Below, in pieces: positions 2,104 through 43,791 of a DNA stretch of 64,000 bases (positions are counted from its first letter, which is position 1; every line of letters begins with the position of its first letter). The DNA is from Gammaproteobacteria bacterium (GTDB lineage: Bacteria > Pseudomonadota > Gammaproteobacteria > RBG-16-57-12). Location of the stretch: positions 1 through 64,000 of the forward strand of contig JAKIVC010000007.1 of assembly GCA_021647245.1 (NCBI GenBank), given 5' to 3'. The notes below the pieces were generated by a model, which made no database searches, was not told where the DNA came from, and saw nothing but the letters and a program-made list of their open reading frames with translations. The translations under genes and the position numbers were made by a program.

Positions 2104-2272
2104 CCTAGGAGGCTGTCGGACTGAGGGTGAATCGACTGCGGAAAAGTCATCTCGGCCCATTTATCCGATCATTTTCGTTGAATATGCCCAATATTCGCCT
2201 CAAACGATCAAAAAAATGGACTCAAAATGGCTTTCCCTCGCTACGATCACCTAAGTCCGACAGCCTCCTAGG
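2104..2272 (+). mobile_element. MITE-like palindromic element, copy 1
   Basis: A 169-bp element bounded by perfect 19-bp terminal inverted repeats (cctaggaggctgtcggact and its complement). It encodes no transposase. Its interior is an imperfect palindrome centred on gaatatgcccaatattc, so a transcript could fold into one long hairpin. Copies 2 (7839-8007) and 3 (43425-43590, reversed) are about 90% similar by eye. It sits 50 bp downstream of recQ. The outer CTAG at both ends could be part of the repeat or a 4-bp target duplication. Confidence 0.88.
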
Positions 2273-2322: not shown

Positions 2323-4242
2323 TTATTCAGAACCCGCATGAGCCAGCAGTTGCTGAAAAGGTACCTCTGCCAGCGCACCAAATAGTGGGTGTTTTGTGAG
2401 TTTGGCGCGGCTCAATTTGGGTGAGGTGATGCCGCATAGAAAGCGGGCTAACGTATGTGGGTCATGCAGTAGCGGTGTTTCAGTCTGTAGATTCAAGGCT
2501 TGTTGCCAGGTGTTTTTATCAATGGCGATGGCGGAATGCGGTATCTCTTCGGCGGTTTTTCCTTTTAAGCACCAGGAGCAGTGGCCACAGGGCTGGTTTC
2601 GCGGGTCACCAAAATAAGTGGCCAGGAAGTTGACCTGACACTCTTGATAGTGGGCCAGTTCAAGCACTTGCTGCAAGCGTTTGATTTCACTGTTTTCGCG
2701 TTGTAGGGCGCGTTGATGCAGCTCTATTGCCAGTGCCTCAGTGCTCTCGGGGTCTTTGATTTTTTGATAGCGATTGCGCAGGCCGGATACTTTGACTTCC
2801 AGTAGATTTTGTTCGCTCAAATAGTCTAGTGCGCGAATGATGCGGTCTCGGGTTGTGTTGATGGTAGCGGCTGTTTGTTCAAGGTCAATGTTGAACCATA
2901 TTTTTGCCTTTTTTGCCTGCCTAAAAATATTGGCAATAAACGTTCGGCGTTCGCCTTCGAAGCGGTTGAGAATGTTATGAGAGTTCTGTAAGGGTTTAAA
3001 TTGGTACGTGGCGTAGAAGGGTGTTCCGCCTTTTAGGTAGCCATCCAGCTCTAGGTAAGTTAGCAGGGTACGCAGCACTAATGGGCGAATGTCATGTGTT
3101 GATGAGAGGCTGTATTGGCTGACGCTGAATTCACTTTCATATGAAAATAGTTCAGCGGTCAGGCTTTTTAGTGACCCTAAAGAGGGTGTGTCGCCATAAA
3201 TGAAGTTTTCGAGAACATTCAAATCATCTGCACAAACCAAGGTTTCACAAATGGAAGTGTCGCCATCACGGCCGGCGCGACCCATTTCCTGGGCAAAGTT
3301 TTCGAGGCTTTTAGGCAGGTTATAGTGGTAGACATAGCGAATATTTGATTTATCTACACCCATACCAAAAGCGATGGTGGCGACGACGATGCCGTTATCA
3401 GAGTTCATAAACCAATCTTGTGTATTGCTACGCTGTTCGCTCTTCATACCCGCGTGATAGGCCCGAGCGGGTAAACCTGCATCTGCCAGCTGCGCGGCGA
3501 CCTCTTCTGCGGTGTGTTGCAAGGTGACGTATATAATGGTGGGGCCGCTGGGCTGGTTTTGCAGGCGAGTTAAAAGTTGTTGGTCTCGTTTTTCATGGGT
3601 GACTGCGGTGGTGAGTACGGTTAAATTAGGGCGATAAAAGCCGGTGCAGATGGCATGGTTTGAGGTGATATCAAAAGCACGGCAGATATCTTCTTTCACT
3701 TTTGGTGTGGCGGTTGCGGTTAATGTGAGTACGCGCTCAGCACCGCAGCGCTTGGAGAATTCAGGTAGTTTTAGGTAGTCAGGCCGGAAGTTGTGCCCCC
3801 ATTCGGAGATGCAGTGTGCTTCATCAATCGCTAGCAGCGAAATAGGCAGCTGTTCAATGGTGGCCCGAAAACGCTCGTTATTGAAGCGTTCGGGTGCGAC
3901 ATAAAGCAGGCGCAGCTTCCCTGAGCGTGCCTGATTGAGCACCTCGTGATATTCGTCGGTGCTTAAGCTGGAGTCGAGGCGGGCGGCTACAATGTTTCGT
4001 TTTAATAAAGCATCAATCTGATCTTTCATTAATGCAATTAATGGGGAGACCACGAGTGTCAGCCCCGGTAGTAGTAGTGCGGGCAGTTGATAGCAGAGTG
4101 ATTTCCCTCCACCGGTTGGAAACAGCGCCAGCGCGGAGTGGCCCTCTAATAAAGATTCGATGACTTCACGCTGGCCTTCATTAAAGTGGTCGAAGCCAAA
4201 GTGTTGTTGTAATGACTCCTCAATGGATGAATTACGCTGCAT
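2323..4242 (-). CDS. recQ: RecQ-family ATP-dependent DNA helicase
   Basis: A 639-residue 3'-5' DNA helicase acting in recombination and replication-fork repair. Visible motifs: motif 0 (GFDHFNEGQ, 16-24), Walker A TGGGKS (43-48), DEAH (140-143) with the RecQ aromatic loop after it, motif V/VI (FGMGVDKSNIRYV, QEMGRAGRDG), and the zinc site C535/C552/C555/C558. There is no recognisable HRDC domain; the tail (LARFLCGITSPKLSRAKLT) is of the type seen in ~640-residue RecQ-like proteins. The frame is open upstream to 4374, but ATG 4242 has AGGAG eight bases before it and starts just ahead of motif 0, so I chose it. It is transcribed divergently from the lipoprotein gene at 4514. Confidence 0.92.
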   Translation of the reverse strand: MQRNSSIEESLQQHFGFDHFNEGQREVIESLLEGHSALALFPTGGGKSLCYQLPALLLPGLTLVVSPLIALMKDQIDALLKRNIVAARLDSSLSTDEYHEVLNQARSGKLRLLYVAPERFNNERFRATIEQLPISLLAIDEAHCISEWGHNFRPDYLKLPEFSKRCGAERVLTLTATATPKVKEDICRAFDITSNHAICTGFYRPNLTVLTTAVTHEKRDQQLLTRLQNQPSGPTIIYVTLQHTAEEVAAQLADAGLPARAYHAGMKSEQRSNTQDWFMNSDNGIVVATIAFGMGVDKSNIRYVYHYNLPKSLENFAQEMGRAGRDGDTSICETLVCADDLNVLENFIYGDTPSLGSLKSLTAELFSYESEFSVSQYSLSSTHDIRPLVLRTLLTYLELDGYLKGGTPFYATYQFKPLQNSHNILNRFEGERRTFIANIFRQAKKAKIWFNIDLEQTAATINTTRDRIIRALDYLSEQNLLEVKVSGLRNRYQKIKDPESTEALAIELHQRALQRENSEIKRLQQVLELAHYQECQVNFLATYFGDPRNQPCGHCSWCLKGKTAEEIPHSAIAIDKNTWQQALNLQTETPLLHDPHTLARFLCGITSPKLSRAKLTKHPLFGALAEVPFQQLLAHAGSE

Positions 4243-7838: not shown

Positions 7839-8007
7839 CCTAGGCGGCTGCTGGACTTAGGGTGAATCTACTGCGGAAAAGCCATTCAGGCCCATTTTTA
7901 CGATCTTTTTCGTTGAATATGCCCAATATTCGCCTCAAACGATCAAAAAAATGGACTCAAAATGGCTTTCCCTCGCTACGATCACCTTAGTCCGGCAGCC
8001 TCCTAGA
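7839..8007 (+). mobile_element. MITE-like palindromic element, copy 2
   Basis: Same orientation as copy 1, with more diverged ends (cctaggcggctgctggact against agtccggcagcctcctag). It begins two bases after the nadK stop codon (8009-8011 on the minus strand) and ends 55 bases before the recN start. It therefore fills the nadK-recN spacer and must be transcribed if the two genes share an mRNA. Confidence 0.88.
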
Positions 8008-43424: not shown

Positions 43425-43590
43425 CTAGGAGGCTGTCGGGCTTAGGTGATCGTAGCGAGGGAAAGCCATTTTGAGTCCGTTTTTTTGATTGTTTGAGGCG
43501 AATATTGAGCATATTCAACGAAAATGATCGGAGAAATGGGCCTGAATGGCTTTTCCGCAGTAGATTCACTCTAAGTCCGACAGTCTCCTG
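43425..43590 (-). mobile_element. MITE-like palindromic element, copy 3
   Basis: The same ~168-bp repeat as at 2104 and 7839, in the opposite orientation. Its ends are ctaggaggctgtcgggctta and the partly diverged taagtccgacagtctcctg; the outer CTAG is lost on the right. It lies 33 bases after the tig stop. A short frame inside copies 1 and 3 (FSLNM-NIRLK-SKK-TQNGF) stays open only because the element is conserved. Confidence 0.88.
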
Positions 43591-43591
43591 A

Positions 43592-43735
43592 TATGTATTA
43601 ACTCGCAACTCATTATTCCAGAAGTCTTTTTTTATGGAATAATGATTGTCTAATACCATCGGACTTTATGTATTTACTCGTCAACAATCCATATTATGGA
43701 TAATTAAGCTGGTGGCGAGTTAATACATAAAGTCT
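43592..43735. repeat. Nested palindromes upstream of clpP
   Basis: Three related 14-19 bp arms occur: tatgtattaactcgc (43592-43606), a direct near-copy at 43662-43680, and the inverted form at 43715-43735. Inside is an 11-bp hairpin tcattattcca/tggaataatga (43610-43645) and a smaller one tccatattatgga. A second short palindromic element may have inserted right beside repeat copy 3. The clpP promoter must lie within or after this block. Confidence 0.7.
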
Positions 43736-43791
43736 AGCACAAAATAATCATGAATTATTCGGGCTAATTAGCCTAGAAAAGAAAAGGTGTT

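Follow-up and report, generated by a model that had tools for sequence, protein, structure and literature searches.

A palindromic mobile element with IS1182-type ends whose core is probably a conserved one-strand RNA

INTRODUCTION

Spacers in a 64 000-nt stretch of gammaproteobacterial DNA (the window, as the whole stretch is called here) carry three copies of a palindromic repeat. Bacterial MITEs are usually seen as decayed transposons, and their hairpins as by-products. Is this repeat such a remnant, or does its long hairpin serve a purpose and, if so, does it serve the host genes after which it stands or the element itself? The original prediction saw in the repeat a MITE whose transcribed hairpin acts on host mRNA, as proposed for ERIC or BIME. 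From comparison of sequences we find it rather probable that the repeat is a non-autonomous MITE with IS1182-type ends and that its core would be a rod-like structured RNA conserved on one strand.

RESULTS

The three elements, expected to be ~90% alike, are real: each is 167 bp long, and copies 2 and 3 are 91–92% identical to copy 1. Their sites had been given correctly, with edges off by 1–2 bases. Copy 1 (2105–2271, fold strand minus) lies ~51 bp past the stop codon of a minus-strand gene, presumably recQ-like; copy 2 (7840–8006, fold strand minus) lies 2 bp past the stop codon of a minus-strand gene, presumably nadK-like, and ahead of a gene which we take to be recN-like (these names were read from translations, with no family search); copy 3 (43425–43591, fold strand plus) lies 32 bp past a plus-strand stop codon. 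A position directly after stop codons, as predicted, is therefore only loosely true.

Terminal inverted repeats of ~19 bp were indeed present, the perfect repeat in copy 1 being 18 bp long, CTAGGAGGCTGTCGGACT. The outer end of this copy at 2105–2126 (plus strand), a terminal repeat of the IS1182 type, begins with CTAG and makes a helix of ~22 pairs; the opposite outer end is at 2250–2271 (minus strand). Ends like CTAGGAGGCTGTCGGACT (up to three mismatches) occur six times in the window versus a mean of 0.01 in shuffled sequences. The whole length had been described as an imperfect palindrome, and copy 1 shares 72% identity with its reverse complement. Folding as RNA, proposed as a check, gave –91.2 kcal/mol for the minus strand of copy 1 versus –44.3 for shuffles (z = –12.7); the plus strand gave –75.2 kcal/mol (z = –10.0), and copy 3 gave –91.8 kcal/mol (z = –11.5). 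That the elements contain no transposase was borne out as well, as their 167 bp have no coding capacity. Copy 3 runs directly into a second palindromic repeat (43592–43738, plus strand) with the end AAAGTCTAG; the two are fused, the right edge of copy 3 reading TGA instead of TAG at the junction, and the fused unit is found elsewhere in the genome.

Searching the element's own genome (2.57 Mb in 64 contigs) for further copies, on which the original prediction had staked itself, we saw 40 matches with at least 90% identity; a covariance model recognized 42 full-length places (counted from the table of matches). About 11 contigs stop ~120 to 145 bases inside a copy, presumably where the assembly broke at the repeat, so the true copy number is probably above 42. 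End sites with up to three mismatches numbered 109 in this genome versus 8 for a reversed control pattern. Solo ends were observed at L037, L038, L039 and L045–L049, each with one terminal repeat, 18 to 50 element bases and the other end absent; they could have come from deletion or from one-ended events.

A phage search with one query gave no match, and plasmid matches were confined to Pseudomonas sp. MPC6 and P. frederiksbergensis. On the MPC6 plasmid (L031, ~3957–4137) the element directly adjoins another CTAG-flanked end, GACAGGCTGCTAG, as if the edge CTAG of one element had been the target of the next.

Ends of the IS1182 family

The ends of the element match those of the IS1182 family: CTAG, then (G/C)AG(G/C)CTGTCGGACTTA. 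A full-length IS with the element's ends, which the original prediction proposed to look for, was found in the own genome and in others. In Endozoicomonas ascidiicola the IS end equals the element end over 21 of 21 bases. In the own genome a complete IS stands on one contig and encodes a 453-aa transposase, which scores 375 bits with the NCBIfam IS1182 model (cut-off 270) and also matches PF05598 and PF13751; the ends of this intact IS, CTAG-CAGCCTGTCGGACTTA, and those of the element, CTAG-GAGGCTGTCGGACTTA, have 14 of 16 end bases in common. Another, in genome G440, is described below. The IS of the own genome splits a sulfate-permease gene, the first half matching PF00916 and the second half having no Pfam match; read by eye, the permease frame continues across a single CTAG, which indicates that CTAG is duplicated when the IS inserts.

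Among transposase homologues in named genomes, 80 loci were kept out of 286 and the ends examined at 39; a by-eye count found CTAG(C/G)AG...CTGTCGG ends in 35 of these 39 IS1182 loci. As to the elements, only 18 of 39 own copies keep an intact CTAG on both sides, as do 62 of 96 diverse ones; counting copies with CTAG at one or both ends gives 34 of 39 and 84 of 96. We thus saw short, non-coding, multi-copy elements with IS1182 terminal repeats and a CTAG edge, features of a MITE mobilized by IS1182; the MITE reading holds, with protein-free copies whose ends match full-length IS1182 elements in the own and in other genomes. A dyad-symmetric target reaching beyond CTAG was considered and rejected, since flanks of the 39 own copies gave 3.0 matches of 12 versus 3.18 when shuffled (p = 0.77).

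An IS1182-like remnant at 870–1093 of the window had been named as a candidate source. IS1182 is the likely source family, as judged by the shared ends; the remnant as source is not supported: compared with four proteins, it matches an IS1182 protein over only 21 residues (E 0.002), and this protein is 26–28% identical to the clade whose ends fit. Today an intact IS1182 is missing from most genomes rich in the element: a transposase scoring over the cut-off was present in 3 of 16, two of the three having been picked for carrying one. Carriers of IS1182 are not enriched for the element either, with 8 of 31 named carriers (E. ascidiicola, E. acroporae, Massilia glaciei, Gallionella, Zoogloea, Amphritea and two Halomonas) having matches versus 87 of 369 genomes of the own class. 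Movers that are gained and lost again, or the help of other transposases, would account for this.

Exchange of ends

Many copies carry ends of another kind (type B): CTAGGAG(G/C)(C/T)TGTCCGAGAATAG. The intact IS1182-family element of G440 has type B ends, and its protein is 34% identical to that of the first IS over 351 residues; each of the two end types can thus be assigned to an IS1182 group. In genomes G219 and G078, a full-length IS with type B ends was also looked for, but no two of the listed end sites were spaced 1–3 kb from each other.

A tree of the core was built from 96 copies and 123 columns; 89 rows were counted, six rows of unclear end type and L215 being left out. The end type changed at least nine times on this tree, versus 23 or more in 200 shuffles. 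Since the tree is poorly resolved elsewhere and its bootstrap unsettled, the figure of nine is rough; the firm cases are two well-supported clades which contain both end types, in E. acroporae (100/98) and in G055 (99/99). One and the same core is found with either of two IS1182 end types, and its ends can be exchanged.

A fold conserved in diverse genomes

The covariance model, built from 25 copies with a fold of ~168 nt, matched in those 87 of 369 genomes of the own class, in 70 of 272 genera. In a sample of the phylum, 46 of 299 genomes had matches, 42 of them from another class and 40 of those in one family (counted from the table). Nearly all full copies are 166–169 nt long.

In 30 diverse copies, compensatory double changes were seen at 53 of 63 pairs versus 33 in shuffles, and 93.8% of the cells were paired versus 74.7% in shuffles and 35–50% for slid structures; the structure was predicted from the alignment that was tested, which favours this structure over slid ones and does not account for the double changes. 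On none of five measures of covariation and pairing did any of 500 shuffles reach as high. These data show a predicted fold kept by compensatory change across very diverse genomes.

Known RNA families with a role, named beforehand as a possible identity of the sequence, gave no match in Rfam 15: with the gathering cut-offs of the families, the window and 15 loci yielded only tRNA and group II intron, and at E values up to 10, six loci gave no convincing match over an element. The group II intron end (RF00029, 44.6 bits) is at 740–868 of the window, behind a reverse-transcriptase-like frame that enters from the window start.

Signal of one strand

The same strand folds better in every copy of four overlapping sets of 25, 23, 30 and 69 copies. 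For the set of 69 the best strand per match was taken; L071 (N), the second L185 match, L201, L249–L251 and L256, all short or partial, and the Endozoicomonas copies L257 and L262 were left out. As a G-U-aware fold could bias such a comparison, we used strand-neutral pairs, predicted without G-U on both strands. The interior of the element had 119 G-U versus 22 A-C cells at these pairs; 29 interior positions leaned to G-U and 7 the other way (sign test, p = 0.0003, which is indicative only, as the copies are related). In the terminal repeats, G-U exceeded A-C in the diverse set (24 versus 6), while the set dominated by the own genus had no asymmetry (21 versus 20). At columns 31–142, G-U is the commonest pair, present in 23 of 30 copies. 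An excess of G-U on one strand is what is expected for RNA.

One could see in all this an ordinary MITE, a deleted or assembled IS1182 derivative without RNA function, whose palindrome persists via recent master copies. IS1182-type ends with CTAG edges, the high identity of copies within one genome and the lack of a consistent orientation to genes (see below) would agree with such an origin; it would leave unexplained, however, why pairs are kept by double changes over very diverse copies, why the length is constant and why G-U so far exceeds A-C on one strand. Furthermore, no IS1182 end among those read runs on into the core, which gives no sign of a simple internal deletion of these elements. 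We consider this explanation unlikely.

Next in order, and also improbable, is a fold of single-stranded DNA, for example of the lagging strand at replication, which would guide transposition; G-T is tolerated in DNA too, so the same strand asymmetry fits. In G358, where origin and terminus are clear from GC skew, the fold sense was that of the lagging strand in 36 of 58 cases, and in G124 in 16 of 28, as such a fold would have it; neither count is significant, however (p = 0.087 and p = 0.57), and RNA is the better fit to positions where G-U is the commonest pair. Moreover, the transposases of IS1182 are DDE enzymes working on double-stranded DNA.

Gene context and orientation

Genes were called by two home-made callers, of which the codon-scored one was used and the length-only one set aside. 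The latter put 6 of 40 own-genome elements inside ORFs and the former 0 of 39; with codon-scored calls, none of 141 copies (sets of 39, 58 and 44) was inside a gene. Rarity of CTAG as the cause of intergenic siting was rejected: 58 of 66 window CTAG sites outside the elements are in ORFs, about the coding share of 0.905. As CTAG is common in ORFs, avoidance of genes needs selection or some other preference.

Between tandem genes, the fold strand ran with the genes or against them in 8:11 cases in the own genome; two complete genomes together gave 23:7, and other loci 8:18. The overall 39:36 means that there was no consistent orientation to genes in tandem contexts. The complete genome G358, with 18 to 4 co-directional, is unlike the other genomes, which could be lineage-specific. 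The lack of a consistent orientation counts against a general function in the mRNA of the host; the likely beneficiary would then be the element itself.

An ERIC- or BIME-like action on host mRNA, which the original prediction had proposed, is thus neither shown nor favoured: an element of the ERIC/YPAL kind, placed after stop codons, co-transcribed and stabilizing or cutting the neighbour's mRNA, would fit the absence of copies from genes, the three window copies, each of which lies behind a gene that runs in the direction of its fold strand, and the bias in G358, and it is the least probable of the three alternatives, as the other sets lean the opposite way and a search around copy 1 for an intrinsic terminator or a terminator-like tail found none.

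DISCUSSION

Comparison with known repeats

We compared the element with repeat families as they are described in parts of PMC2759123, PMC2229807, PMC2267715 and PMC2847712. Like IS-derived MITEs in general, it is short and protein-free and has IS-type terminal repeats and many copies, the target edge being CTAG in the IS1182 case. Simple MITEs have only their ends in common with the source; the element, in addition, has its core conserved in many families as the RNA fold of one strand and occurs with two IS1182 end types.

YPAL or RU-2 of Yersinia (~168 bp), in the descriptions of PMC2759123 and PMC2229807, is an intergenic long hairpin of nearly equal length; unlike the element, it lacks CTAG, and PMC2229807 gives it a terminal repeat of only 7 bp and target duplications of 3–26 bp. 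Comparison with the published RU-2 repeat revealed no similarity, as nhmmer had no hit and the best blastn match was nine bases. ERIC (RU-1) of enterobacteria resembles the element as an imperfect full-length palindrome in spacers, with a possible RNA hairpin; the element, of 166–169 bp with CTAG edges, is set apart from it by the description in PMC2759123, where ERIC has 127 bp, TA ends and a TA duplication.

PMC2229807 further describes NEMIS/Correia of Neisseria, MITEs with RNA hairpins proposed to be cut by RNase III, and RUP of S. pneumoniae, a MITE whose ends match IS630-Spn1; both differ from the element in ends, lengths and hosts, and the sections on them tell of no deep covariation or exchange of ends. 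Bor-2, a 167-bp intergenic stem-loop family of Bordetella bronchiseptica, is listed in a table of PMC2267715; judged by this table description, it shares length, intergenic place and predicted stem-loop with the element and may be an earlier sighting of the family in one species.

Among open-licence PMC papers (without supplements, judged by titles and the starts of abstracts) we found no description of the family, and six 14-base end strings occurred there only in papers unrelated by title. Rfam 15 and this open-licence literature, taken alone, suggest a mobile RNA family that is uncatalogued.

What is new is a MITE core with the behaviour, as far as alignments can tell, of a mobile RNA that is conserved and whose IS1182 ends can be exchanged. 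Covariation, strand polarity and exchange of ends together indicate a specific RNA that persists under changing ends. One could go further and regard the element as a widespread mobile non-coding RNA family: a ~120-nt one-strand core present in two classes of the phylum would be the lasting hereditary unit, carried to dozens of sites per genome by IS1182 ends that can be exchanged. We offer this wider reading tentatively. If true, an uncatalogued structured RNA is present, often in many copies, in nearly a quarter of the sampled genomes of the class (87 of 369), and genomes with dozens of copies offer a way to test if a bacterial MITE depends on its RNA.

Possible mechanism and variants

For the MITE with a conserved RNA core, we infer the role of the RNA as follows. 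IS1182 transposases very probably move the element in trans to CTAG sites; the fold would likely act as RNA, produced by read-through from neighbouring promoters. Selection on this RNA might serve the element itself, which would stay movable or have its insertions tolerated; as insertions have no consistent orientation to genes, such selection would be for the element and not for the neighbouring gene. The recognizer could perhaps be a protein or nuclease acting at two conserved internal loops, UCGUAGCGAG/CCGCAGUAGA and GAGGC/AACGA. A form of 83 bp in Halomonas sp. Y3 (L249, 1501–1583), reduced to the terminal repeats plus the first internal loop, points to this loop as the minimal requirement.

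Mobility also extends to composites. The second palindromic repeat (~150 bp) has 13 full copies and partial ones in the own genome. Ten copies, including that of the window, have the whole fused unit in common while their outer flanks differ, and one more shares the first junction bases only; one inner junction, different outer flanks and the end AAAGTCTAG indicate that the composite moved as one.

Further shortened forms, of 129 and 83 nt and still matching the model end to end, were seen in Zoogloea (L250, L256) and Halomonas ventosae (L251). In G055, four copies (L083, L204, L209 and L211) have 47 to 70 nt inserted in one arm by the first internal loop.
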